64,000 nt of DNA from Bacteroidota bacterium (lineage in GTDB: Bacteria; Bacteroidota; Bacteroidia; UKL13-3), in contig JAIXSO010000062.1 of NCBI GenBank assembly GCA_027484685.1, positions 1-64,000 of the forward strand. The letters run 5' to 3'. Below the pieces are notes generated by a model that worked only from the letters and a program-made list of their open reading frames with translations, was not told the DNA's origin and did not search any database. The translations under genes were made by a program, and so were the position numbers. Below are positions 4,762 through 64,000 of this stretch, piece by piece (positions within the stretch are counted from its first letter, which is position 1; each line of letters opens with the position of its first letter).

Positions 4762-4806
4762 AAAATCTGTGAAAGATGGTTTTTCGTCCATCAATTCACA
4801 GATTTT
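4762..4806 (-). terminator. Intrinsic terminator of the BI-1 family gene
   Basis: AAAATCTGTGAA (4762-4773) pairs with TTCACAGATTTT (4795-4806), and an inner GATGG/CCATC stem (4775-4779 with 4788-4792) extends the hairpin. Read on the minus strand it follows the stop at 4827 and ends in a T run. It separates this gene from the Ldh-family gene downstream. Confidence 0.75.
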
Positions 4807-4826
4807 ATAATCTTTAATTATTTAAA

Positions 4827-5516
4827 TTATTTTCTATCGCCTAATAAGCGTAATAAGTATAAAAATAAATTGATAAAATCAAGGTACAAAGTTAATGCAC
4901 CCATAATTGAACCTTTTTTAGCTTGTTCTCCATCTAACTGAGTAGCCATTATTTTTAGTTTTTGGGTGTCGTAAGCTGTTAATCCTACAAAAATCATTAC
5001 ACCAGCATATGATATAATATAGTTTAACATTGAGCTTTGTAAAAAATAATTAACAATTGTAGCTATAATTAATCCTATTAGACCCATCATCATAATAGCT
5101 CCAAAACCGCTTAAATCTTTTTTGGTAAAAAATCCTGCTAAACTCATTACTGCAAAAGTACCAGCAGTAATAAAAAATGTGGATGCAATAGAACTAGCAG
5201 TATATAAAATGAAAATGCTCGAAAGAGTAATTCCGCTTAAAACTGAATACAAAACAAACATAATGGTAGCGGTTGTGTAACTTAATTTAGAAACACGAGC
5301 ACTTAAATACCAAACTACTCCAAGTTGAGCTATTATTAAACCCATAAACATGTATTTGGTGCCGAATACTATGCTTAATAATTGTTCTGACGAAGCTACA
5401 TACATGGCTACAACACCAGTAATAAATAATGCTAAAGTCATCCATGAATAAACTTTAGTCATAAAAGCACCCACCACACTTTGGGTTTGGGTTGATGAAA
5501 TTTGTGAGTTTTCCAT
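4827..5516 (-). CDS. Bax inhibitor-1/YccA family integral membrane protein
   Basis: A 229-residue membrane protein with about seven hydrophobic segments after a short polar N terminus. It matches the BI-1 (TMBIM) family: TKVYSWMTLALFITGVVAMY at the start, GLTAYDTQKLKIM near residue 185, and a final LYLDFINLFLYLLRLLG segment. Bacterial members such as YccA are inner-membrane proteins. YccA interacts with the FtsH protease, and other members conduct calcium; the function of this one is unknown. It is a single gene with its own terminator on the downstream side. Confidence 0.9.
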   Translation of the reverse strand: MENSQISSTQTQSVVGAFMTKVYSWMTLALFITGVVAMYVASSEQLLSIVFGTKYMFMGLIIAQLGVVWYLSARVSKLSYTTATIMFVLYSVLSGITLSSIFILYTASSIASTFFITAGTFAVMSLAGFFTKKDLSGFGAIMMMGLIGLIIATIVNYFLQSSMLNYIISYAGVMIFVGLTAYDTQKLKIMATQLDGEQAKKGSIMGALTLYLDFINLFLYLLRLLGDRK

Positions 5517-6866: not shown

Positions 6867-8189
6867 ATGACCAAATTTTATAAAATTTTGTTTTTTAGCG
6901 TATTAACTTGTTGTGTTTTTATAAACAAAGCTTTGACGCAAAGCGAAATAATTGAAAAAAAAAATAAATCAATTGATAAGGCTCCACAAAAACTACTTTT
7001 ACATAAAATGGATCCCAATAATTTTAATTTTGGAGTAGGTATTGACGCCAATTTAAATTTAATTGGAACTGAATATGGCAATAGAATAGGAAATTTTATG
7101 CCCAGGTTTAGCGTATTTTTAAGCAAACCTTTAAATAAATATTATGTAAACAGCTTTATTAGTTTATGGGATTACTCTATTGAACCATTAGCCATCAATT
7201 TTATTGAAAGCCGCGATAAATCAACCGATAACCAGTTTGGTGGTTATTATTTTGACCCTTCGTTTGCTTTACATTTAGTGCCCGATAGAAGCAGTAATGA
7301 TTTTAAATTAATGTTTGGTTTGCGACCTTCTTATTTAATGTATAGTTATTCACAAACTTTAGAAAATGGTGCTTATAGATTGATTCAAGGAGGTTTAGAA
7401 TCAAATAAAAATAAAGCTGGCGATATTGATTTAGCAGGAATGATTGGTTTTAGTTTTAAGTTTAGTCAAGTAGGAAATTTTGAAATAAAATATTTGCACA
7501 GCTTTACCAATAATAGCACCGGAAATTATATTGCTGGCAGACCAAATACATTGGAGTTTGGTGTAAGATTAAGTGCTGTACAAATTGGCAAAACACTTTT
7601 TGACATAGATAATGAAGTAAAAAAACAAGTACTTAAATTAAATAAAGGAACGCTGTTGATTATGTTTCCTACACCAAATATTCACGAAATTAATGCACTA
7701 AAACGTGCAGGAAGAAATGATGAAGTAACCCAAATTTATTTTGTGCAACAGCTCAATAATAAAATGGTTATGGATAAAATGAAAAGTGATTATAAATTTA
7801 GTAAAGTGCTGTATCTTTCTGATTCATCTATCAATAAAATATTAGCAAAAGATTTTAACAATGTATTTATTGACGAAAACTATTTACCAATAGAAGCACC
7901 ATTAACTTTCGATTCTACTAATTTTTTAATTGCATCATTTTGTTTCGATATTTCAGAATTTTCGAGCAGAAATAAATTGGCATATGGTTTACATGTGTAT
8001 AACGAAAAAATGCAATTGCTTTCCAAACCCTTTAATGCCATGCGAAACGATATGGGTATGGTTCAAGGCAATAATATTTTTGCCGATTTATTTGGTAAAA
8101 AAGTACTGTTTACACCGCTGGATTACGAAAATGTAATTAAGAAATTTAACGATAGGTTATTACGTTACAAACTAGAAGAAGAGGAGTAA
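6867..8189 (+). CDS. Exported protein with predicted outer-membrane region and unassigned C-terminal domain
   Basis: A 440-residue protein beginning with a signal peptide (MTKFYKILFFSVLTCCVFINKALTQS). Residues about 50-250 alternate polar and hydrophobic strands (FMPRFSVFLSKPL, FEIKYLHSFTNN, LEFGVRLSAVQIG), as in Bacteroidota outer-membrane beta barrels. Residues about 260-440 do not look like a barrel: GTLLIMFPTPNIHEINALKRAG and a region rich in alternating helix and strand suggest a soluble alpha/beta domain exposed in the periplasm. I do not recognise the family. It sits 10 bp behind queG and converges with the vWA gene. Confidence 0.6.
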   Translation: MTKFYKILFFSVLTCCVFINKALTQSEIIEKKNKSIDKAPQKLLLHKMDPNNFNFGVGIDANLNLIGTEYGNRIGNFMPRFSVFLSKPLNKYYVNSFISLWDYSIEPLAINFIESRDKSTDNQFGGYYFDPSFALHLVPDRSSNDFKLMFGLRPSYLMYSYSQTLENGAYRLIQGGLESNKNKAGDIDLAGMIGFSFKFSQVGNFEIKYLHSFTNNSTGNYIAGRPNTLEFGVRLSAVQIGKTLFDIDNEVKKQVLKLNKGTLLIMFPTPNIHEINALKRAGRNDEVTQIYFVQQLNNKMVMDKMKSDYKFSKVLYLSDSSINKILAKDFNNVFIDENYLPIEAPLTFDSTNFLIASFCFDISEFSSRNKLAYGLHVYNEKMQLLSKPFNAMRNDMGMVQGNNIFADLFGKKVLFTPLDYENVIKKFNDRLLRYKLEEEE

Positions 8190-53063: not shown

Positions 53064-55550
53064 ATGGCAATAAAAAAATCTGAGTTATATAGCTCTCTTT
53101 GGGCTAGTTGTGATAAGTTAAGAGGTTCAATGGAGCCAAGCCAATACAAAGATTATGTATTGGTTTTATTATTCGTAAAATACGTTAGCGATAAGTATGC
53201 TAACGATGCCAATGCGCTTATAAGTATTCCTGTTGGTGGAAGTTTTAAAGATATGCAAGCCTTAAAAGGGCAAAAGGATATTGGAGAAAAAATAGACATG
53301 GCAATTACCAAATTAGCCAAAGAAAATGATTTGGTAAACGTAATTGATGTTATTAGTTTTCAGGATGAAGAAAAACTAGGCAAGGGCAAAGAAATGGTCG
53401 ATAAGTTAACTGACTTAATTACCATTTTTGAGAACCCTGCTTTAGACTTTAGTAAAAACCGTGCAGAAGGCGATGATATTTTAGGTGATGCTTACGAATA
53501 TTTGATGCGTCATTTTGCTTCGGAGAGTGGCAAAAGTAAAGGCGAGTTTTATACACCTGCTGAGGTAAGCAGAGTATTGGCTAAAGTTATTGGTGTAAAA
53601 AAGGTTAGTAAAGAAAAACAAACCATTTATGACCCTACCTGTGGTTCGGGTTCGCTTTTGCTGAAAGTGGCCGAAGAAGCAGAAACCAAAGTAAATTTAT
53701 ATGGGCAAGAAAAAACAGTAGTTACTGCTGCTTTGGCTCGTATGAATATGATTTTGCATAACAACCCTGAAGCTGTAATTGAAAAAGGCCAAAGCACCCT
53801 TTCTAATCCATTACATAAAAACGAATTAGGTAATTTAAAAACCTTTGATTTTGTGGTGGCTAATCCTCCTTTTTCGTCAAAAAATTGGACTGATGGTTTT
53901 GACCCTGCAAACGATATTTTTAACAGATTTAATATCGATACCATTCCACCTGCTAAAAATGGTGATTATGCTTTTTTATTGCATATTATTAAATCGCTAA
54001 AAAGTACTGGTAAAGGTACATGTATTCTGCCACATGGTGTATTGTTTAGAGGAAATGTAGAAGCCGAAATACGCAAACAATTAATCAATAATAACTATAT
54101 AAAAGGCATTATTGGTTTGCCTGCAAACTTGTTTTATGGTACCGGAATACCTGCTTGTATTATAGTTATTGATATGGAGCATGCTGCTGCTAGTACTGTT
54201 GTAAACAATGATGATGAACGCGGTATTTTTATGGTAGATGCTAGCAAAGGATTTATTAAAGATGGAAATAAAAACAGGTTACGAGAACAAGACATTCACA
54301 AAATAACCGATGTGTTTAACAAACAAATTCCCATAAAAGGATATAGCCGTTTTGTAACATTTACCGAAATAAGCGACCCTAAAAACGATTTTAATTTAAA
54401 TATTCCACGTTATATTGATAGTCAAGAAACAAAGGATGTACAAGATATTGAAGCTCATTTATTAGGCGATATTCCAAATGCTGACATTGAAGCATTGGAA
54501 GAATATTGGCAGGTTTATCCTACGCTTAGAAAGCAACTTTTTAAGGATGGAAGGCCAAACTATTCTCAATTAAACATTGAAACTGCTTATATAAAAAGTA
54601 CTATTTTTTCGCACCCCGAGTTTATAAAATTTAGTGCTGAAATGGATGCTTTGTTTACTGAATGGAAAATTAAAAACACGGCTGTTTTAAAAGATTTAAC
54701 AAAGGGTATTAAGCCAAAAGCGGTAATTAACCACCTTTCAGAAGATGCGCTAACTACCTATTCTCAAAAGCCTTTGCTTGATAAATACGATGTGTACCAG
54801 CATGTAATGAATTATTGGAACGAGGTAATGCAAGATGATTGTTATTTAATAGCTGTGGATGGTTGGAAAGCCGAACCTTACCGCATTATTGTAACAACTA
54901 AAGTTAAAGGCAAGGAAGATAAACAAGTGGATAAAGGTTGGGCTTGCGATTTGGTTCCTAAAACTTTAGTAATTGACCGATACTTTTTAGCAGAGAAAAA
55001 AGCCATTGAAGCTTTAGAAGCTAAGAAAGAAACTATTGTTACCGAGCTTGCCGAATTAGAAGAAGAACACAGTAGCGAAGATGGTTATTTTGCCGATTTT
55101 GATAAGGTAAATAAACAATCTGTAACTGTTGAGTTGAAGAAATTAATTACTCTAATAAATAAAGATATAGGTAGAGATACAAAGGAGCGCAGAGACTGGA
55201 AGAAAGTTGCAGAAGTTTACGAAAAATTTTTAAAACTCATTGACGACCAAGCCGAGCTCACTAAAAAAATTAAAGCAGCTGAGGATAAATTAGATTTATT
55301 AGCACTAAATAGATATAAAACACTTACTGAAGGGGAGATAAAACAATTGGTGGTGGACGATAAATGGATGACAAGCATGGAGCGAAATGTAAAAACCGAA
55401 ATGGAACGCATTAGCCAGCGCCTTACCCAACGCATAAAAGAACTTGGTGAACGCTACGAAACACCCTTACCAAAACAAACTACTGATGTAGCCGAACTAG
55501 AAGCTAAAGTTACTGCTCATCTTCAAAAAATGGGATTTGTATGGAGTTAG
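53064..55550 (+). CDS. hsdM: Type I restriction-modification methyltransferase subunit HsdM
   Basis: An 828-residue HsdM: N6-adenine methyltransferase of a type I restriction-modification system, which needs HsdS for target recognition. The N-terminal HsdM-N helical domain (SLWASCDKLRGSMEPSQYKD) is followed by the methyltransferase domain. This has GEFYTPAEVSRVLAKVIG, motif I DPTCGSGSLLLKVAEEA (near residue 190) and the catalytic NPPF motif (VANPPFSSKNW, near 267). About 250 residues of C-terminal coiled-coil-rich sequence extend beyond the usual ~500-residue core. It overlaps the next gene by 10 bp. No hsdR is found in the window. Confidence 0.93.
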   Translation: MAIKKSELYSSLWASCDKLRGSMEPSQYKDYVLVLLFVKYVSDKYANDANALISIPVGGSFKDMQALKGQKDIGEKIDMAITKLAKENDLVNVIDVISFQDEEKLGKGKEMVDKLTDLITIFENPALDFSKNRAEGDDILGDAYEYLMRHFASESGKSKGEFYTPAEVSRVLAKVIGVKKVSKEKQTIYDPTCGSGSLLLKVAEEAETKVNLYGQEKTVVTAALARMNMILHNNPEAVIEKGQSTLSNPLHKNELGNLKTFDFVVANPPFSSKNWTDGFDPANDIFNRFNIDTIPPAKNGDYAFLLHIIKSLKSTGKGTCILPHGVLFRGNVEAEIRKQLINNNYIKGIIGLPANLFYGTGIPACIIVIDMEHAAASTVVNNDDERGIFMVDASKGFIKDGNKNRLREQDIHKITDVFNKQIPIKGYSRFVTFTEISDPKNDFNLNIPRYIDSQETKDVQDIEAHLLGDIPNADIEALEEYWQVYPTLRKQLFKDGRPNYSQLNIETAYIKSTIFSHPEFIKFSAEMDALFTEWKIKNTAVLKDLTKGIKPKAVINHLSEDALTTYSQKPLLDKYDVYQHVMNYWNEVMQDDCYLIAVDGWKAEPYRIIVTTKVKGKEDKQVDKGWACDLVPKTLVIDRYFLAEKKAIEALEAKKETIVTELAELEEEHSSEDGYFADFDKVNKQSVTVELKKLITLINKDIGRDTKERRDWKKVAEVYEKFLKLIDDQAELTKKIKAAEDKLDLLALNRYKTLTEGEIKQLVVDDKWMTSMERNVKTEMERISQRLTQRIKELGERYETPLPKQTTDVAELEAKVTAHLQKMGFVWS

Positions 55551-56113
55551 ATAATACCAGAAAACAAAAAGGAAAACCCAAAAACGAAGTAGTTTTTCCT
55601 GTGCCTGAGGCATTGTTAAACATGCCTGAAGGATATCATTCTTTTATTAGTAAATTGAAAGAGCGAATCTCTCAAGAGCGTATCAAAACTGTTTTATCTG
55701 CAAATGCATCTATGATAATGATGTATTATGAAATTGGGAAAAACATTTTAACACAACAAAAACAAGAAGGTTGGGGAACAAAGGTAATTGATAGAATGTT
55801 GTACGACTTAAAACAAGCCTTTCCTGATATGACAGGATTTTCGCCAAGAAACCTTAAATACATGCGTAAATTTGCCGAGGTTTGGCCCAATATTGAAATT
55901 GTGCAACGCACCGTTGCACAAATACCTTGGCGCAGCAATATTACCTTGTTAGACAAATTGAATGATTTGGAAACAAGATTTTGGTATGCTCAAAAAACCA
56001 TTGAAAATGGTTTTGGAAAAGATATGTTAGCTTCTTTACCCGAAAACCTAAAAAACAGCCTACCTAGTATTGAAGAAATAGAAAAAGAACTAGCCAATGA
56101 CGACAATGAGTAA
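55541..56113 (+). CDS. DUF1016/YhcG-family protein lacking its nuclease domain
   Basis: A 190-residue protein in the hsdM-hsdS operon. Residues ~30-155 are the N-terminal YhcG domain in excellent condition: MMYYEIGKNILTQQKQEGWG, IDRMLYDLKQAFPDMTGFSP, RNLKYMRKFAEVWP, VAQIPWRSNITLLDKLND, then WYAQKTIENG. The last residues LPENLKNSLPSIEEIEKELA match the very end of full YhcG proteins. The region in between, the PD-(D/E)XK nuclease domain of ~150-180 residues that normally follows WYAQKTIENGW, is absent. The frame continues across the join. Overlaps hsdM by 10 and hsdS by 17 bp. Confidence 0.82.
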   Translation: MELDNTRKQKGKPKNEVVFPVPEALLNMPEGYHSFISKLKERISQERIKTVLSANASMIMMYYEIGKNILTQQKQEGWGTKVIDRMLYDLKQAFPDMTGFSPRNLKYMRKFAEVWPNIEIVQRTVAQIPWRSNITLLDKLNDLETRFWYAQKTIENGFGKDMLASLPENLKNSLPSIEEIEKELANDDNE

Positions 56114-57314
56114 TACAAAAACAGGTTACAAACAAACAGAAGTTGGCTTAATTCCTGGTGATTGGAAGGTATTTAAGTTAGGTCAATGCTTACTAAAAAA
56201 TCCTGATTATGGTATCAATGCAGCAGCAGTTGAATATGATGATACTCTACCAACATATCTAAGAATAACAGACATTTCAGAAGATGGGAAATTTATAAGT
56301 TCCAATAAAGCATCTGTAAATAATTCACTTTCAAATTCTTATTATTTAGAAAAAGGAGATATTGTTTTTGCAAGAACTGGTGCGAGTGTTGGAAAAACAT
56401 ACCTGTATAATGAAAATGACGGTAGATTAGTTTTTGCAGGTTTCTTGATAAGAATTAAAGCTAATCCAGAAGTTGTAGATTATCGTTATTTAATTTACTT
56501 AACTCAAACTAAAACTTATTGGGCTTGGGTTTCTGCAAATTCTATGAGAAGTGGGCAGCCAGGTTTGAATAGTAATGAATATAAATCGTTTCAAATTCCT
56601 CTTCCACCGACAATAGCCGAACAAACCGCCATAGCAAACGCTTTAATCGATGCCGATGCCTTGATAAGTGGTTTAGAAAAACTGATAGCAAAAAAACGCA
56701 ATATCAAGCAAGGGGCCATGCAAAAATTGTTACAACCAAAAGAGGGATGGGAAGTGAAGAAGTTGGGGGAAATTTGTGAATTTACACAAGGTATCCAAAT
56801 TCCTATGTCGGATCTAAATAAACAATCAAATGAAGGACTTATTCGTTACTTATATATAAGAGATTTCTTTACAGATGACTTTCAATGGTATGTTGCGAAT
56901 ATCTATCCTTCTAAAATTATGGAACGAACAGATATAATGATGATAAATACTGGCAATACTGCTGGTAAAGTATATTCCGGTGCATATGGAGTTTTGAGTA
57001 ATAATGCTTTTAAAATAAGCTTTAATCAAAATGTTGTTGATAGAAATTATTTATTCGAACTCTTGAAGAGTAAATTTGTACAAAGTTCAATTCAGGAATT
57101 ATTTAATTCTTCAGGTCAACCACATGTTGGCCATAAAAATATCGCAAAAGTAATAATTCCATTTCCACCAAAAGATGAACAAACCCACATAGCCACCATT
57201 CTTTCAGATATGGAGTCCGAGATAAGTGCCTTAGAAACCAAATTAGAGAAATACAAAAAAGTAAAATTAGGTATGATGCAAAATTTATTAACTGGTAAAA
57301 TTAGGTTGGTATAG
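56097..57314 (+). CDS. hsdS: Type I restriction specificity subunit HsdS
   Basis: A 405-residue HsdS with two target-recognition domains. TRD1 is residues ~1-180, from GLIPGDWKVFKLGQCL to FQIPLPPTIAEQTAIA. A central conserved coiled coil (ISGLEKLIAKKRNIKQGAMQ) follows. TRD2 runs from GWEVKKLGEICEFTQGIQIP to IIPFPPKDEQTHIATILSDM. The C-terminal coiled coil SALETKLEKYKKVKLGMMQN is followed by a short LLTGKIRLV end. HsdS sets the DNA sequence recognised by HsdM. An internal ATG at 56106 is an alternative start. Its 3' end is repeated downstream at 57948-58097 and in part at 59678-59716. Confidence 0.93.
   Translation: MTTMSNTKTGYKQTEVGLIPGDWKVFKLGQCLLKNPDYGINAAAVEYDDTLPTYLRITDISEDGKFISSNKASVNNSLSNSYYLEKGDIVFARTGASVGKTYLYNENDGRLVFAGFLIRIKANPEVVDYRYLIYLTQTKTYWAWVSANSMRSGQPGLNSNEYKSFQIPLPPTIAEQTAIANALIDADALISGLEKLIAKKRNIKQGAMQKLLQPKEGWEVKKLGEICEFTQGIQIPMSDLNKQSNEGLIRYLYIRDFFTDDFQWYVANIYPSKIMERTDIMMINTGNTAGKVYSGAYGVLSNNAFKISFNQNVVDRNYLFELLKSKFVQSSIQELFNSSGQPHVGHKNIAKVIIPFPPKDEQTHIATILSDMESEISALETKLEKYKKVKLGMMQNLLTGKIRLV
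57227..57314 (+). repeat. hsdS 3'-end module, copy 1 (genuine hsdS end)
   Basis: The segment encodes SALETKLEKYKKVKLGMMQN then LLTGKIRLV and stop, followed by RTATG that starts the next gene. A 25-nt block (57227-57251) is identical to 58011-58035, and the LLTG...RLV block (57278-57311) matches 59681-59714 at about 27 of 34 positions. Confidence 0.85.
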
Positions 57315-57315
57315 T

Positions 57316-57951
57316 ATGGCAAAATTTCAAAACAAATACCGCAGCGAAACAGCAAGGGCACCTTGGTGGAATTATGCCAACGATGGGGCGTATTTTATTA
57401 CCATTTGCACAGCAGGTAGGGAAATGATATTTGGCGAAATTTTTAACAATGAAATGTACCTTTCGCCCATTGGCGAAATAGTAAATGAGGAATGGAATAT
57501 TTCATTTGATATGCGTGCCGAATTATTTTGCGACACATTTGTAATAATGCCAAACCATATCCACGCCATATTGCGGATTGATAATGGTATTGTTGGGTCG
57601 CACGGTATTGTTAATACGCACGGTATTGTAGAGACGCACGGCCGTGCGTCTCTACGGGCAACCCCACAAACCCCACAAACGCCATCCCCACCACCCAATA
57701 CAGGTGTTGCCTATCGTTCGCCAAAATCAATATCATCGTTTGTTGGAGGCTTTAAATCGGCAGCCACCAAACGGATAAACGAATATCGTAAGGACGCACG
57801 GCCTTGCATCCCCACAGGCCCCGTTTGGCAAACCCGTTTTCACGACCATATTATTCGTAATGAAGAGGAATACCAACGAATTTATAATTATATAGAAACC
57901 AATATTGAAAATTGGGAAAAAGATAAATTTTTCAAAAAAGAAGAACTATGA
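57316..57951 (+). CDS. REP-associated tyrosine transposase-like protein (RAYT)
   Basis: A 211-residue Y1/HUH transposase of the TnpA-REP type, which processes single-stranded REP hairpins. The N terminus is NKYRSETARAPWWNYANDGA YFITIC (split here to show the family opening). The HUH motif is VIMPNHIHAILR. The catalytic-Tyr helix region is RNEEEYQRIYNYIETN near the end. An insertion of about 50 residues with GIVGSHGIVNTHGIVETHGR follows the HUH motif; its DNA contains three 18-bp repeats and a 28-bp palindrome. It starts 1 bp after the hsdS stop and ends in ATGA overlapping the hsdS fragment. Confidence 0.85.
   Translation: MAKFQNKYRSETARAPWWNYANDGAYFITICTAGREMIFGEIFNNEMYLSPIGEIVNEEWNISFDMRAELFCDTFVIMPNHIHAILRIDNGIVGSHGIVNTHGIVETHGRASLRATPQTPQTPSPPPNTGVAYRSPKSISSFVGGFKSAATKRINEYRKDARPCIPTGPVWQTRFHDHIIRNEEEYQRIYNYIETNIENWEKDKFFKKEEL
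57586..57639 (+). repeat. Three 18-bp repeats inside the RAYT gene
   Basis: GGTATTGTTGGGTCGCAC, GGTATTGTTAATACGCAC and GGTATTGTAGAGACGCAC follow each other without gap. They encode (N/H)GIV(G/N/E)(S/T) three times and lead into the palindrome at 57628. Confidence 0.85.
57628..57655. repeat. 28-bp perfect palindrome (REP-like) inside the RAYT gene
   Basis: GTAGAGACGCACGGCCGTGC (from 57628) continues with GTCTCTAC to 57655 and reads the same on both strands over 28 bases. It is much more GC-rich than its surroundings. A second GGACGCACGGCC core lies at 57792-57803 in the same gene. Confidence 0.9.
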
Positions 57952-58097
57952 GTAAAATAAACAAAATATATAATGACTCCATTATTTCCGATTTACATAC
58001 CAAGATTACTGCCTTAGAAACCAAATTAGAGAAATGCAAAAAGGTGAAATTAGGTATAATGCAGAAGTTATTAAATGGGGAGATAAGGTTGGTATGA
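57948..58097 (+). pseudogene. hsdS C-terminal fragment (copy 2 of the hsdS 3' end)
   Basis: A 49-codon open frame whose ATG overlaps the transposase stop (ATGA). It encodes MSKINKIYNDSIISDLH and then TALETKLEKCKKVKLGIMQK LLNGEIRLV, matching the last ~36 residues of HsdS. It lacks both recognition domains. The fragment could be a translated coiled-coil peptide or simply a scar. The next gene starts 1 bp after its stop, exactly as behind the true hsdS. Confidence 0.85.
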
Positions 58098-58098
58098 T

Positions 58099-59025
58099 AT
58101 GGAAAAGAAAGAGACAAACCAATCTGAACTAATAACAGGTAAAACCGTAATTTGGCGAAAACTAACAGAGGCAGCAATTAGTAGCTCCAAGTCTTATGTT
58201 GCTGTTGCCTATTTCTCGAAAAATGCATCTAAAATGCTGCCTTTAGCTAAAGGTAGCATACTGGTAGTAGATGCAAGCGAAAATGCTGTCAAGTCAGGTC
58301 AAACCTGCCCAGAAGAATTACTAAAACTAGAAAAGTTAGGAGTGAAAATATTTTCATTCACAGGATTGCATGCTAAAGTATTTGTTTTTGATAATGTTCT
58401 GTATATTGGTTCTACTAATGTTTCAGCTCATTCTGCAAACTATTTAGAAGAAGCAATTTTAAAAACGAATGAGAAAAAAGTGGTTAATGAATCGGTTGCT
58501 TTTATCAAATCACTTTTGATAAAGCAGCTAACTCAAAACGAACTAATTGAGTTGAATAAAATCTATAAAGAACCCAAGTTTTTCTCACCAAAGTCAAGCA
58601 AAAAACAAAACATACAAAATGGACATGAGCAAGTAGTGTACGTAGTAAAACTAAGAACCTTGAAAAAAGAGTTTAAAAATGAACAAGAAGATTATGATAA
58701 AGGAAAGAAAATAGCTTTGGAAAAACTTGAAGAAGGACAAGAGTTGGAAGCATATCGCCATGTAGTTACTCATAAACCCAAAATTGGAGATTTGGTAATT
58801 AGAATTACAAAGGATGACAACAGAACTCGTGTTGCAGCGCCAGCTACGATTTTGAATATTAAGCCAATTAAAAACTCAAACAGAATTTATGTTTATGTAG
58901 CAGCTCCGAAATTAAAAGAAAAAAGCTTAAAAGAAATTGAGAAAAAACTAGGCACTACAGAACTGAAAAAGGCAGGTTTGAAAAAAAGCAGTTTAGCAGC
59001 TAAAATAAATTCAATGTGGATATAA
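58099..59025 (+). CDS. Phospholipase D-like protein with a single HKD motif
   Basis: A 308-residue cytoplasmic protein. Residues ~10-140 form half of a PLD-superfamily domain: AAISSSKSYVAVAYFSKNAS, then GLHAKVFVFDNVLYIGSTNV with the His-x-Lys and Asn positions (near residues 90-107) and SANYLEEAIL. Single-HKD proteins of this type (Nuc, restriction endonuclease BfiI) work as dimers. Residues ~170-308 are unassigned, Lys-rich and contain THKPKIGDLVIRITKDDN and ATILNIKPIKNSNRIYVYVA. A nuclease role in the restriction locus is inferred from family and place. The following gene overlaps its end by 10 bp. Confidence 0.8.
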   Translation: MEKKETNQSELITGKTVIWRKLTEAAISSSKSYVAVAYFSKNASKMLPLAKGSILVVDASENAVKSGQTCPEELLKLEKLGVKIFSFTGLHAKVFVFDNVLYIGSTNVSAHSANYLEEAILKTNEKKVVNESVAFIKSLLIKQLTQNELIELNKIYKEPKFFSPKSSKKQNIQNGHEQVVYVVKLRTLKKEFKNEQEDYDKGKKIALEKLEEGQELEAYRHVVTHKPKIGDLVIRITKDDNRTRVAAPATILNIKPIKNSNRIYVYVAAPKLKEKSLKEIEKKLGTTELKKAGLKKSSLAAKINSMWI

Positions 59026-59663
59026 ATATGGGATGTGAACACAAATTTTCAGAATATCTAAATCTTGAAAAAATAGATTTTAAACCAACAACCTTGATAG
59101 TTGGAACCTTTAACCCATCATGGCCAGCAGGCAATAATGCCGAGTGGTTTTATGGGAGAACAGCAAGAAATTATCTTTGGGATGTATTGCCAAGATTATA
59201 TTTTCCAAACTTAAATTTAAGGCAACAAACTCATTTACAATGGAAAGAATTTTGTAGCAATAATAGGATTGCCTTAACGGATATTATATCAAAAATAAAT
59301 GATGCAAATGAAGCAAACGAAGAACACCAAGAAATTCTTCGAACTTATTTAGACACCTCCATCGCAGATTATTTTGCGGATTTTCAATTTACAAATTTAG
59401 AACAGTTAGTAAATAATAATCCAACAATAACAAATATATATTTAACAAGGCAAAATGGAGTTGATTTATTTGATAATAGATGGGCTTTGTTAGAAGAATA
59501 TGCTTTAGCAAATCCTCAAAGAAATTTACGATTAAGAAAACTAATGACGCCATCAGCAAGTGCAAGATTTCAAATTAGAGCATATAGATTAGCAAATCCT
59601 AACGACCCAACTCCGCTTAGGAATTTTATTTTTGAAAGTTGGAGAGATGAATGGCATTTTTAA
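59016..59663 (+). CDS. Uracil-DNA-glycosylase-fold protein of unknown specificity
   Basis: A 215-residue protein. It shows the pattern of the UDG superfamily: TTLIVGTFNPSWPAGNNAEW followed by FYGRTARNYLWDVLPRL (strand, short active-site loop, then a helix with an aromatic) and a late RLRKLMTPSASARF loop similar to the family's PSPS-type motif. Canonical uracil-excising residues cannot be assigned with confidence, so the base or function is open. The start is ATG 59016 (overlaps the PLD gene by 10 bp) or ATG 59028, 3 bp after it. Translation is likely coupled to the PLD-like gene. Confidence 0.7.
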   Translation: MDINMGCEHKFSEYLNLEKIDFKPTTLIVGTFNPSWPAGNNAEWFYGRTARNYLWDVLPRLYFPNLNLRQQTHLQWKEFCSNNRIALTDIISKINDANEANEEHQEILRTYLDTSIADYFADFQFTNLEQLVNNNPTITNIYLTRQNGVDLFDNRWALLEEYALANPQRNLRLRKLMTPSASARFQIRAYRLANPNDPTPLRNFIFESWRDEWHF

Positions 59664-59677
59664 AATAAATACTATTG

Positions 59678-59716
59678 ATGGAAAATTTATTAACAAGAAA
59701 AGATAGGTTGGTTTAA
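59678..59716 (+). pseudogene. hsdS 3'-end remnant (copy 3)
   Basis: ATG GAA AAT and the following codons encode MENLLTRKDRLV and a stop. It matches the HsdS end MQNLLTGKIRLV, with the blocks AAAATTTATTAAC and TAGGTTGGT identical. It lies in the 159-bp gap behind the UDG-like gene. The rest of the gap, to 59822, is AT-rich without recognised features. Confidence 0.65.
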
Positions 59717-59822: not shown

Positions 59823-61661
59823 ATGATGAATGATAATTTTAAAAAAATTGAAGAACTTTTAGGTTACAATTTTAAAATTGACTCGTATCAACGTGGTTAT
59901 AGGTGGGACACTTCACAAGTATTTAGTTTGCTAAATGATATACAAGAATTTAAACTTGAATATCAGTCTTTTTATTGTTTACAACCATTGGTTGTTAAAA
60001 AGCTTGATGAAATTACTTTTGAACTTATTGATGGTCAACAAAGAATGACAACTATTTTTCTGATACTCATGTTTTTTAATTCAAATAGGTTTCAACTTTT
60101 ATATTCTACAAGAAATACAGAAGAAAACGGGATTAATTCTTTTTTAGAAAGCATAGTTAATTTATCTATTCCTAATTTTCAATTATCTGAGGAAATAGAA
60201 GATTTTACTCAAGTTGATACTGAAATTTCGGTGCATTGGAAAGAGCTCATTACTAATAATGATTCCATAATTAACAGTGTTGATAATTTCTATTTTTACA
60301 GAAGTTATTGTGTTATTACAAATTGGTTCAATCATTTTGATAAAATATCTAAAGATGAATTTTTACGCAAATTATTGACGCATACAAGGCTGATATGGTA
60401 TGTTGAAAATGAAGATTCATCAGATAAAAAAATAATAAAAAAATTTATTGACTTTAACGATGGGAAAATTGAACTTGAGCAAGCTGAATTAATAAAAGCA
60501 CTATTTGTACTTGATATAATTCAAACTCCAAATATAATGCAACGACAATATGAAGAAAATAAGTTTGCCGATGATTGGAATTTGATAGAACATCAAATGA
60601 GTGATAAAAAGTTTTGGCAATTTATTTCTAACAATAAAAACGATATAAATGTTGCCAATAAAATTAACTTGTTGTTTCAACTATACAATGGATATGGTAA
60701 AGCAGAAGATCGATTTTATAATTATAGAAAATTTGAAAAATCTTTTAAAAACAAAACTGAATTAGATAGACCAAATTGGGATAACATCACAACTCAATAC
60801 AATAGTTTAGAGGAATGGTTTTTTGACAGAACTACATATCATTTAACAGGAGCAATTATTCACTTGACGAATTCTAATATTTCTAAAATACTTGAAATAG
60901 CAAAAAAAGCAGATAGCAAAATTGAATTTCGAAATATGTTAAAAGATATTTTAAAAAACTATTTTATGGAAAACAATAATTGGAAAAAAGAATACGATCC
61001 TCATACAATAAAATACAACGAAGGAGGAGTTTTTAAAATGTTGTTTCTATATAATATTGCACTTACGGAAATTGATGAGCCAGATTCCTTTTTTCCTTTT
61101 TATCGTTTTTACAACACCAATAATTGGAATATTGAACACATTTTAGCAAAGAATGATGATGGGTTAGATAAGCTCGAAGAATTTGGCAGTTTCTATGATG
61201 ATATTAAACATTTAATCAATGCATTAGCTGATGACGAAATTAGTAATGAAAATAGAGGAATACTCAGTAAATTATCAGATGATTTGTATACTTCAATTGA
61301 AGAGAAAAAGAAAGGGGAAAGCAAAAAGAAAATTAGGGAAATAAATGAAAAAATGAATGAATTTTTTAGCATTGATGATTTTAATAATTTGTGCCTTTTA
61401 GATCAATCAACAAATATTAAAGTAGGTAAAAAGCCTTTTCGTAGAAAGCGGGATATTGTTTTAAATTTAGATGAAGAAATAGAAATCAACAACGATGCTT
61501 TTATTCCAATTGGAACACAATATGTTTTTTCGAAAAAATCAACTCCTTCTAAATCATATCAAATTAATTATTGGAGTTTACTGGATAGAAATAATTACCA
61601 AAAAATAGTAATTAATACGATAAATGATTTTTTAAAACACGAAAAAAATGGAACTAACTAA
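59823..61661 (+). CDS. DUF262-DUF1524 (GmrSD-like) restriction-family protein
   Basis: A 612-residue protein. The N-terminal DUF262 domain has the ParB/GmrS-like nucleotide-site motifs DSYQRGYRW (near residue 20-27) and ELIDGQQRMTTIFLILMF (near 70-85). Residues ~400-470 resemble the HNH-type DUF1524 domain (NTNNWNIEHILAKNDDGLDK, with the conserved His). GmrSD proteins cut DNA with modified bases. The charged tail (EKKKGESKKKIREINEKMNE) is helical. It overlaps the next DUF262 gene by 14 bp. Other functions for DUF262 pairs are possible. Confidence 0.8.
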   Translation: MMNDNFKKIEELLGYNFKIDSYQRGYRWDTSQVFSLLNDIQEFKLEYQSFYCLQPLVVKKLDEITFELIDGQQRMTTIFLILMFFNSNRFQLLYSTRNTEENGINSFLESIVNLSIPNFQLSEEIEDFTQVDTEISVHWKELITNNDSIINSVDNFYFYRSYCVITNWFNHFDKISKDEFLRKLLTHTRLIWYVENEDSSDKKIIKKFIDFNDGKIELEQAELIKALFVLDIIQTPNIMQRQYEENKFADDWNLIEHQMSDKKFWQFISNNKNDINVANKINLLFQLYNGYGKAEDRFYNYRKFEKSFKNKTELDRPNWDNITTQYNSLEEWFFDRTTYHLTGAIIHLTNSNISKILEIAKKADSKIEFRNMLKDILKNYFMENNNWKKEYDPHTIKYNEGGVFKMLFLYNIALTEIDEPDSFFPFYRFYNTNNWNIEHILAKNDDGLDKLEEFGSFYDDIKHLINALADDEISNENRGILSKLSDDLYTSIEEKKKGESKKKIREINEKMNEFFSIDDFNNLCLLDQSTNIKVGKKPFRRKRDIVLNLDEEIEINNDAFIPIGTQYVFSKKSTPSKSYQINYWSLLDRNNYQKIVINTINDFLKHEKNGTN

Positions 61662-64000
61662 ATCTTTTTATGAAATTATAAGTAAATATATTATTGAGGT
61701 TCCAATAATACAGCGAGAATATGCTCAAGGTAGAAATACCGAAAAAGTAATATCTATCCGAAAAAGATTTGTAAATGATCTTGTAACAGCAATTTTAACT
61801 GATGATAAGATTCATCTAGGTTTTGTGTATGGAAAAATTGAAGGTAAAGAAAATATTAGACGAAAAATTTTAAATAAAGAGGCTGTATCATCAATACTTG
61901 ATGCTGTAAAATTTTATGCAAATAATTTTGACTTACGTATAACTGCAAATATTGAAGAAACCGAGAATGAAGTTAATAATGTAAATCTTTTGAAATTTAT
62001 TCCATTAGATGGACAACAGAGACTTACAACTTTATATATGCTCAATTGGTACTTATACTATAAAGGAGCTAAATCTCAAGACATTGAATGGTTAAATCAT
62101 TTTAAGTATTCAAATAGAAAGTCTTCTTTAGCATTTTGTAGAGAATTAGTTAATGAAAAAAATATTTCTATTTTAAAACAAAAACATTTAAAAAACAAAG
62201 AGACTAATATTAAGGAGTTAATTAGTAATTCTAGCTTTTTTTTAAAAAAATGGAATAAAGATGCCACTGTAAGTGGTATGCTTGAAATGTTGTTATCTAT
62301 TGAAATAGCTTTCGATTCAAATTTTGATTTCTCAAAAATTGATATTGAAAATCTGCCTTTTTCGTTCGATTTTATGGATTTAGATTCACTAAATCAAACA
62401 GATGAATTGTATGTAAAAATGAATTCAAGAGGCAAACAATTATCTGACTATGAACATTTCAAATCTTGGCTTCAAGAAAAGTACAGTGATAATTCTGATA
62501 AAGATTGGATGGATTCTTTTTGGTTAAAACTGGATACTGTTTGGTTAAATTACTTTTGGAGAAACATTGATACAGATTTCAATAATTTGGATAATTTTTA
62601 TTATCATTATATCAAGAATCTCGCCTTAATGCATTGTCTAGCAAACAATACAGAAATTCCTTTTGAAAAATTAAAGGGCATTTATAGTTTGATAAGAAAT
62701 ACAGAAGTATACGATAATCTAAAAGTATCATATATCTCTTTAGAAAATTATCTGATAAAATGGTGTAATAGCGAAAACGAAGAAAAAGAATTCTTTATGT
62801 TCAATATAGAAACATTGAAATTTATAGAAAAATCATTTGATTCATTAATTTATTTGGAGCAAAATGAAGTTCTTCAGAATCTGGATTTAAAACAGATAAT
62901 TTGTAAGCCATTTATTGAAAATCCCATTAATGATTTTTTCTTAAAAGCTAATCTTTTTACTCCGACATTATGGAATTCAAATTTTTATTATTCATTTATT
63001 ATTTTTATCAATGATAGAGAAAATGAAAATTTTACTGTTAATGCTATGAAAGAATGGTTAAGATTTACAAGAAATATTATTTATAATACTCAAATTCAAA
63101 GTCCTGAAAACTTCAATAATGCTTTAAAACAAATCAATAAATTATCATTATTTAAATTTAACATTTCTGATTCCATAATAAATAACAAAGTAGAGAATGT
63201 TTTTTTTGAAAATACTCAATTTGAAGAAGAGAAAGTAAAGTTGCAACTTCTAACTAATGAAGAATGGATAAAACCAATTTTTGAGGCAGAAAATCATACT
63301 TATTTTTATGGACAGATAAAGTTTCTATTAGATTTCTCAAAAGATGAATTTGGTAATTATAACGTTCAAAACTTTATAAAATATAGCAACAACATTTCAA
63401 AACTATATAAAAAAGAAATAAGAAAGTCCAATGAAAAAACCTTGGAACGGTTTTTACTTTGTGAAGACTTTTACCTACCTCATTATAAGTCAGATTATAT
63501 ATTCTGTAGCGCATCATCGGGGAATTTAAGAACTAAAAATGAAAATTGGCGTCAATTTTTCAAAGGAGATAAGGTTATAGCTTTAAAAAATGCTATTGAT
63601 AAATTAAATGGTCAAGAAATAAGTAATGAACTTTTAATAGACTATATTAACGAATACATAAAAAACAACAATTTAGGATCATCCAATTGGAAATATTTGT
63701 TTTTAAAGTATCCTCAAGCAATTAATTATTGTAAAGAAAGTGCTATTAGATGGATTTCTGATAATGATATTCGATTGTTGAAAGGGTTTCCAATAACTGC
63801 CTATCATTCTGAATTGAGGAGCTATTGTTTTTATTTACAACATAAGCACTCAGAATCCATAAATAAGGATGTAATTAGTCACTATAAATTTTCACCATTT
63901 ACAGAATTTCGGTTTTTCGAAGATAAAAACACGGAAGGTCATCCAGGTTTATATTTAAAAGGGTTTATTTATTTAAAAAAGGAATATAAGCTTGAGATAA
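61648..64000 (+). CDS. Second DUF262 protein (3' end cut by the window)
   Basis: The frame is open from ATG 61648 to the window end, at least 784 codons. The N-terminal DUF262 part shows IIEVPIIQREYAQGRNTEKV (residues ~15-35), FIPLDGQQRLTTLYMLNWYL (residues ~117-137) and YVKMNSRGKQLSDYEHFKSW. No DUF1524 segment is visible yet; the last 300 residues are a long helical, Asn- and Lys-rich region. It overlaps the upstream DUF262 gene by 14 bp, so both are translated from one message. It resembles hsd-linked DUF262 proteins such as RloF. Confidence 0.8.
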   Translation, partial: MELTKSFYEIISKYIIEVPIIQREYAQGRNTEKVISIRKRFVNDLVTAILTDDKIHLGFVYGKIEGKENIRRKILNKEAVSSILDAVKFYANNFDLRITANIEETENEVNNVNLLKFIPLDGQQRLTTLYMLNWYLYYKGAKSQDIEWLNHFKYSNRKSSLAFCRELVNEKNISILKQKHLKNKETNIKELISNSSFFLKKWNKDATVSGMLEMLLSIEIAFDSNFDFSKIDIENLPFSFDFMDLDSLNQTDELYVKMNSRGKQLSDYEHFKSWLQEKYSDNSDKDWMDSFWLKLDTVWLNYFWRNIDTDFNNLDNFYYHYIKNLALMHCLANNTEIPFEKLKGIYSLIRNTEVYDNLKVSYISLENYLIKWCNSENEEKEFFMFNIETLKFIEKSFDSLIYLEQNEVLQNLDLKQIICKPFIENPINDFFLKANLFTPTLWNSNFYYSFIIFINDRENENFTVNAMKEWLRFTRNIIYNTQIQSPENFNNALKQINKLSLFKFNISDSIINNKVENVFFENTQFEEEKVKLQLLTNEEWIKPIFEAENHTYFYGQIKFLLDFSKDEFGNYNVQNFIKYSNNISKLYKKEIRKSNEKTLERFLLCEDFYLPHYKSDYIFCSASSGNLRTKNENWRQFFKGDKVIALKNAIDKLNGQEISNELLIDYINEYIKNNNLGSSNWKYLFLKYPQAINYCKESAIRWISDNDIRLLKGFPITAYHSELRSYCFYLQHKHSESINKDVISHYKFSPFTEFRFFEDKNTEGHPGLYLKGFIYLKKEYKLEI

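Follow-up and report, generated by a model that had tools for sequence, protein, structure and literature searches.

Three hsdS ends in a Bacteroidota type I restriction operon as probable scars of successive gene replacement

On the basis of a first-pass annotation proposing that the 3' end of hsdS is present three times with cargo genes between the copies, we analyzed a 64,000-nucleotide (nt) stretch of a Bacteroidota genome (assembly GCA_027484685.1, contig JAIXSO010000062.1, positions 1 to 64,000), referred to here as the window. It carries a type I restriction operon in the order hsdM, DUF1016_N gene, hsdS, RAYT-like Y1 gene, PLD-like gene, UDG-like gene, and two DUF262/GmrSD_N genes; hsdR and a metallopeptidase-like gene follow beyond the window end, at contig positions 64338-68134. 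The assignment to type I rests on an HsdM with an N6 methylase domain, an HsdS with two recognition domains, and a full-length HsdR downstream, a 1025-amino-acid (aa) open reading frame (ORF) that, used as a query, matches an E. coli ORF annotated as subunit R. With foreign genes in the hsdS-hsdR interval and a metallopeptidase-type gene after hsdR, the operon has the layout of embedded defence genes. Its genes and the three hsdS ends are the following.

53064-55550, + strand: hsdM, type I methyltransferase subunit (N6_Mtase and HsdM_N; PADLOC MTase_I)
55541-56113, + strand: DUF1016_N gene, cargo between hsdM and hsdS (DUF1016_N the sole domain match)
56097-57314, + strand: hsdS, complete specificity subunit of 405 aa with two Methylase_S stretches; its last ~128 nt belong to copy 1
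57196-57323, + strand: copy 1, the hsdS 3' end plus the first bases of the following gene (direct repeat)
57316-57951, + strand: RAYT-like Y1 transposase gene (Y1_Tnp), cargo 1, beginning 1 nt past the hsdS stop
57948-58097, + strand: 49-codon ORF, ~10 codons fused to an hsdS tail, its ATG overlapping the RAYT stop by 4 nt
57979-58106, + strand: copy 2, an hsdS tail with 81% identity to copy 1 (direct repeat, genome search)
58099-59025, + strand: PLD-like gene (PLDc_2), cargo 2a
59028-59663, + strand: UDG-like gene, cargo 2b, with 49% identity to a gene in the same slot of locus L218
59676-59718, + strand: copy 3, a 43-nt hsdS tail (direct repeat, genome search, shuffles)
59823-61661, + strand: DUF262/GmrSD_N gene 1, first of a pair that is TgvAB-like by architecture (GmrSD_N; 74% identity to locus L133)
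61648-64000, + strand: DUF262/GmrSD_N gene 2, continuing past the window (GmrSD_N/DUF262; 70% identity to locus L133)

Are there indeed three hsdS ends? Copies 1 and 2 form an ungapped direct repeat of 128 nt, and in both of them the ATG of the next gene lies 1 nt past the stop codon (57316 and 58099), the equal spacing that the first-pass annotation had pointed out. The identical block it had seen between these copies exists, with a length of 26 nt in our alignment instead of 25. Its match for copy 3, given as 27 of 34 bases, is likewise real and is counted here as 35 of 43. Copy 3 scored 46 within the 3.56 kb downstream of copy 2, a value reached in none of 1,000 dinucleotide shuffles (best, 45), and 32 real control pieces of the window (15 forward from bases 1-52000, 17 reverse) scored at most 34. 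A search of the whole 4.5-Mb genome with the hsdS end, in which 40 of 84 first-look candidates were scored, returned these three places and no others at E <= 0.001, with E = 7.7e-5 for copy 3. The shuffles, the control pieces, and this E value rule out a chance origin of copy 3, and together with the direct repeat they confirm three hsdS 3' ends with cargo between them. Copy 3 is not abutted by a gene; the nearest following gene start was taken to be 106 nt on. The ORF containing copy 2, whose first 4 nt overlap the RAYT stop, opens with the codons for MSKI. These residues agree with the consensus of hsdR starts, a resemblance too short to prove anything, and the first ~10 codons of the ORF are possibly the start of a donor gene.

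The proposed gene calls were upheld by domain matches for hsdS, the Y1_Tnp gene, the PLDc_2 gene, and the GmrSD_N/DUF262 genes. The RAYT-like gene scored 66.7 bits against the REP-associated transposase (RAYT) model, under the cut-off of 80. Pfam and NCBIfam scans gave no match for the UDG-like gene, and its relative in L218 gave a weak match (28 bits against a cut-off of 80) to a model of DNA-deoxyinosine glycosylase; we therefore treat the label UDG-like as a lead only. PADLOC gave no match for the RAYT, the UDG-like gene, or DUF262 gene 2 and weak matches for the PLD gene. No site-specific recombinase was found among the nine window proteins scanned. The RAYT coding region holds three 18-nt tandem units and a perfect 28-nt palindrome with arms of 14 nt (57586-57659 and 57784-57819); the 20-base core of the palindrome has no second exact match in the genome, and by eye the RAYT coding region of locus L227 also holds a palindrome, a different one. 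The protein encoded by the DUF1016 gene (55541-56113) matched the N-terminal domain alone, with no match to the YhcG nuclease domain of its relatives (the YhcG proteins of L022 and L045).

We then asked whether hsdS tails recur elsewhere. The hsd loci were gathered by similarity to the window HsdM (80 loci), to HsdS, and to the tail itself, and plasmid and E. coli records were added. Since these samples overlap (some GTDB contigs are present twice), the hsdS genes were made non-redundant, from 152 to 139, of which 131 have at least 400 nt downstream. A remnant was counted at a score of 40 or more on the same strand, with one threshold for all gene ends. A downstream same-strand copy of the hsdS end was found for 10 of the 131 hsdS genes: those of L022, the window, L130, L182, L218, L266, L045, L059, L264, and L035. 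This fraction is not an unbiased rate because the sample was picked by similarity to HsdM or HsdS and partly to the tail. None of the controls reached 40, the maximum being 34 in the reverse complement of the same regions and 39 in the regions upstream of hsdS. The copies start at -25 to about -135 and end at or near the hsdS stop codon; the resident hsdS of L130 extends ~18 codons further. Counting both window copies, 6 of 11 tails lie within ~15 nt of the next start codon (window copy 2, L130, L035, L045, L182, and L264).

A protein profile recovered six of the ten tail loci and one doubtful locus, L056, which was left out of the count (E 0.014-0.026 at the protein level, no DNA match). From nine loci collected through short hsdS-like ORFs (L178-L186), L182 alone was counted, the rest having no separate tail behind a complete hsdS because the locus is broken or partial, is cut by a contig edge, or shows only a frame overlap. 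The hsdS-hsdR gap exceeded 300 nt in 61 of 78 loci with hsdM, hsdS, and hsdR in this order (redundant set). In E. coli, a DarTG-type locus was matched in 266 of 5426 genomes, 242 of them over at least 80% of the locus, with 60 of 272 records listed. The nine E. coli loci inspected, including two without a complete hsdS (L194 and L198), were none of the ten tail loci.

The cargo between hsdS and its tail differs from locus to locus. It consists of a HigB toxin and a helix-turn-helix gene in Runella zeae (L022), a GxxExxY gene (PDDEXK_3) in L130, where McrB-McrC come after the tail, a UDG plus one other gene in L035, YhcG in L045, KilA-N in L059, and an AAA gene in L182, where the first 60 codons of another AAA gene follow the tail. 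In L218 a UDG-like gene stands among others, and two GmrSD-type ORFs, the first confirmed as GmrSD_N, lie behind the tail; this is the same kind of gene order as around window copy 3. Relatives of the other window genes occupy similar places: RAYT genes directly follow hsdS in L227 and a probable hsdS in L217, and the hsdS-hsdR gap of L215 includes, two genes after hsdS, a PLD gene with 31% identity. The operon looks mosaic: the window DUF262 pair retains 74% and 70% identity to the L133 pair although the HsdM proteins share only 50%. The same 3' module behind different cargo supports the earlier proposal of repeated cargo arrival at, or recombination through, the hsdS end.

GxxExxY-type genes were also observed in two other hsdM/hsdR loci of genome G324, directly behind hsdS in L211 (4393-4869) and between hsdM and the probable hsdS of L217 (7337-7816), where the RAYT precedes hsdR; further ones lie outside hsd operons (L212-L214). 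Residues 23-215, the first half of the window HsdS (56163-56741), match the second half of the Emticicia HsdS (L018, 11204-11779) at 74%, a sign of domain exchange in which a recognition domain has apparently changed place.

Is the hsdS tail the only gene end left behind? Across the ends that face the cargo slots we found 16 remnants in 449, namely 10 of 131 hsdS tails, 3 of 97 hsdR heads, 2 of 110 hsdS heads, and 1 of 111 hsdM tails (for hsdM and hsdR, identical ends only were removed). The outer ends of the operon gave 0 of 213 (hsdM heads, 0 of 101; hsdR tails, 0 of 112). The difference between inner and outer ends was significant (Fisher P = 0.002), as was that between hsdS tails and the other inner ends (P = 0.009). 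Because remnants occur at inner ends and at none of the outer ones, we conclude that the process is a property of the cargo slots and favors the hsdS tail. The first-pass annotation had called the accretion site-specific; this is not supported, because hsdR heads, hsdS heads, and one hsdM tail have left remnants as well and the left boundaries spread from -25 to about -135.

Two loci contain chimeric joints. In Runella zeae L022, a 57-codon ORF is an hsdR start fused to an hsdS tail, and its hsdR-start part is identical to the resident hsdR head at 40 of 41 aligned nt; an incoming piece may here have ended within the donor hsdR and been joined to the old hsdS end. The L084 remnant, which lies between two DUF1016/YhcG genes, combines 18 nt of an hsdS start with an hsdM tail ~65 codons long; this hsdS head scores 37 and was excluded from the head count. 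Two further arrangements involve hsdR heads. In Emticicia L018, the locus with the closest HsdM (77%), a Fic gene stands between the hsdR start and a second, nearly identical one (score 120 over 65 nt). The order in L227 is hsdS, RAYT, a truncated hsdR start (4803-4961, ~48 codons matched), another gene, and then a different hsdR, so that the truncated start is another type of scar. The hsdR heads of L225 (38) and L226 (35) exceed the reverse-strand maximum of 31, fall under the threshold of 40, and were not counted. L073, a candidate hsdS head remnant, proved to be an hsdS with a stop in its head (score 37, uncounted). In both L043 (~7380-7440) and L073 (~7170) the hsdS start is cut by a TGA at the tryptophan codon of a conserved IPxDW motif.

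Do the tails derive from the resident hsdS? In L022 and L130 taken together, the tails differ from the resident hsdS by 16.5 synonymous and 8.5 nonsynonymous changes, a ratio of nonsynonymous to synonymous rates (dN/dS) of about 0.14. A neutral copy of the resident tail is rejected (P = 6e-6), also if half the changes are placed on the constrained hsdS (P = 0.0017). Since these two tails differ mostly synonymously, they derive from other hsdS alleles. When the tails were ranked by profile against 94 genuine HsdS C-termini, the two fresh tails of L022 and L130 had 72 and 77 genuine ends below them; the other six of the eight ranked had only 0-7. The tail of L059 contains in-frame stops, and copy 3 and the L035 tail are reduced to 12-15 codons. 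From the allelic differences and the poor profile ranks we conclude that a tail originates as the end of a different hsdS allele and decays afterwards.

These data lead us to favor, with reasonable though incomplete confidence, the interpretation that the tails are scars of successive, partly illegitimate replacement of hsdS and adjacent cargo by pieces from other type I loci. The three hsdS ends of the window would then be a small stratigraphy of replacements within a type I operon. The ancestral order would have been hsdM-hsdS-DUF262-DUF262-hsdR. A first incoming piece, an hsdS (hsdS') with the PLD and UDG-like genes from another type I locus, would have replaced the old hsdS, with its right joint within the last few dozen bases of that gene; the old tail, copy 3, would have been left before the DUF262 gene because this joint fell inside the old gene's end. 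A second, later piece, the present hsdS with the RAYT, would have replaced hsdS' and left copy 2 before the PLD gene. Copy 3 is thus, in our reading, the oldest scar. The left joint would probably have formed by ordinary homologous recombination in hsdM/hsdS, and the right joint would have been illegitimate. No role as proteins is expected of the scars, which may persist because they are short and adjoin the start of the next gene.

Several observations weigh against this interpretation. Six of the ten tails (L218, L266, L045, L059, L264, and L035) score 40-50 only, hsdS-head and hsdM-tail remnants number one or two each, and the hsdS label of the gene upstream of the L217 RAYT is a weak profile match. 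The strong dN/dS result stems from two loci only. For window copy 2 (8.5 synonymous and 12.5 nonsynonymous changes) the test is not decisive, with P = 0.037 for a neutral and 0.29 for a half-neutral copy, and the seven other tails pooled gave P = 0.0003 and 0.17, the latter compatible with a half-neutral copy of the resident tail. The idea that the left boundaries arose through microhomology shared by hsdS tails and hsdR heads was not supported, the mean length of the longest common word being 6.5 nt compared with 6.2 and 6.3 nt for the controls (P = 0.1 and 0.3). A close pair of strains with and without a given insertion was not found in the G324 family or in the same-genus genomes: 11 of 70 G324-family genomes (G324 included) matched the query and none has the same locus, and a match to the hsdS end, a weak one of 35 nt, was present in only one of the nine same-genus genomes listed. 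For the chimeric joints seen in L022 and L084, neither donor nor empty site was found in the G324-family comparison, which bears on homology-facilitated illegitimate recombination. Finally, that the recombination was one-sided is itself something we infer.

Could the insertion of cargo instead have duplicated the end of the resident gene? The last 25-135 nt of hsdS would then have been copied as in a large target-site duplication, with hsdS itself kept. The Emticicia hsdR head copy, almost identical to its resident, looks like a fresh duplication in situ, which is possible for that locus, and the tight packing of cargo from hsdS to the tail would fit as well. The mainly synonymous differences of the fresh L022 and L130 tails from the resident hsdS disfavor it, the hsdR or hsdM sequence at the joints of L022 and L084 is not accounted for by it, tail lengths vary widely, unlike the target duplications of insertion sequences (IS), and no transposase was matched among the scanned cargo proteins of other loci. 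We consider this explanation unlikely.

A more ambitious alternative is that hsdS tails are recurrent, recombinase-free cassette junctions at which cargo plus tail is reinserted, by general recombination, at any hsdS 3' end of the family; we hold this to be improbable. Were it true, type I operons would grow ordered arrays of defence modules whose scars could be read as a chronology. In its mechanistic form, in which the tails serve as homology and cargo plus tail excises as circles that enter other hsdS ends with no recombinase of their own, we give it little credence. Tails do flank cargo as direct repeats in the window and nine other loci, their allelic origin fits such an exchange too, and excision and reintegration via direct repeats have been described at the pneumococcal tvr hsdS locus, where they depend only in part on the local recombinase (PMC6265443). 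However, tails of about 25-130 nt at 73-95% identity are poor recombination substrates, most of them look decayed, and the hsdR heads and the hsdM tail at joints require illegitimate events anyway.

It is very unlikely that the tails were kept as small genes, either as HsdS C-terminal helix peptides acting on HsdS/HsdM assembly or for translational coupling of the next gene. The tails of copy 2, L022, and L130 do have an in-frame ATG (49, 57, and 49 codons), and the closeness of 6 of 11 tails to a start codon would suit coupling. The low profile ranks of six of the eight tails, with 0-7 of the genuine ends below them, are not those of a peptide under purifying selection, the stops in L059 and the brevity of copy 3 and L035 speak against a peptide, and the L022 ORF starts as hsdR, not as hsdS. 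A RAYT or IS200-IS605 transposon insertion can be dismissed, as what is repeated is a piece of hsdS tail, 43-128 nt long and 81% identical, and the scanned cargo of other loci has no transposase, and so can a recombinase-driven hsdS shuffling locus, given no site-specific recombinase in the nine scanned proteins and remnants without target recognition domains (TRDs). Full-length hsdS genes lying in a row and successively truncated, which the first-pass annotation had named as the finding that would reduce the copies to ordinary decay, were not seen among the 131 hsdS genes: a second hsdS-like ORF of at least 330 aa within 8 kb occurred in 1 of 131 (a weak match), one of 70-329 aa in none, and the other seven matches were below 70 aa.

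Replacement with remnant ends may have a known counterpart. In homology-facilitated illegitimate recombination, one homologous anchor and one illegitimate joint would yield leftover ends. The present loci differ in that no excess of microhomology was found. Pneumococcal phase-variable hsdS loci include tvr and the locus in which SpnIII inversions reportedly occur. They resemble the window in that a single type I locus contains repeats and more than one piece of hsdS; at tvr, however, a recombinase shuffles TRD-encoding segments (PMC6265443), whereas the window pieces are terminal, lack TRDs, and occur with no site-specific recombinase among the genes scanned. The window from 59823 onward is comparable to TgvAB, a DUF262 pair embedded in the type I operon of Vibrio cholerae VPI-2, and to RloF of Campylobacter jejuni, in both of which DUF262 proteins are encoded inside an hsd operon (PMC11411939); unlike at those loci, an hsdS tail and more cargo come before the pair in the window.

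The first-pass annotation took a site-specific accretion of genes on a restriction specificity gene to be new. Part of this is already published: defence genes embedded between hsdS and hsdR are reported in PMC12255303 and PMC11411939, the interval has been named a possible recombination hotspot, and the annotated E. coli loci that we fetched carry DarTG-type genes or a DUF262 pair in this slot. The RptR-type RMS-DarTG2-M48 island of E. coli shares with the window the order hsdM-hsdS-cargo-hsdR-M48 peptidase. The window differs in having two stacked inserts with scars, and the accessible part of PMC12255303 makes no mention of hsdS or hsdR remnants. We found no description of hsd end remnants between embedded genes in the open-licence PubMed Central (PMC) literature, and in the literature examined it is not settled how embedded defence genes reach type I operons. 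Thus, the kind of locus is known, while the scars, and what they tell of its growth, appear to be new. Remnant gene ends at joints would provide molecular evidence of replacement events; they suggest that a specificity gene moves together with the defence genes beside it, and they allow the order of acquisition to be read within one operon. The scars also provide an easily searched signature from which the history of donors and recipients among type I loci could be traced.

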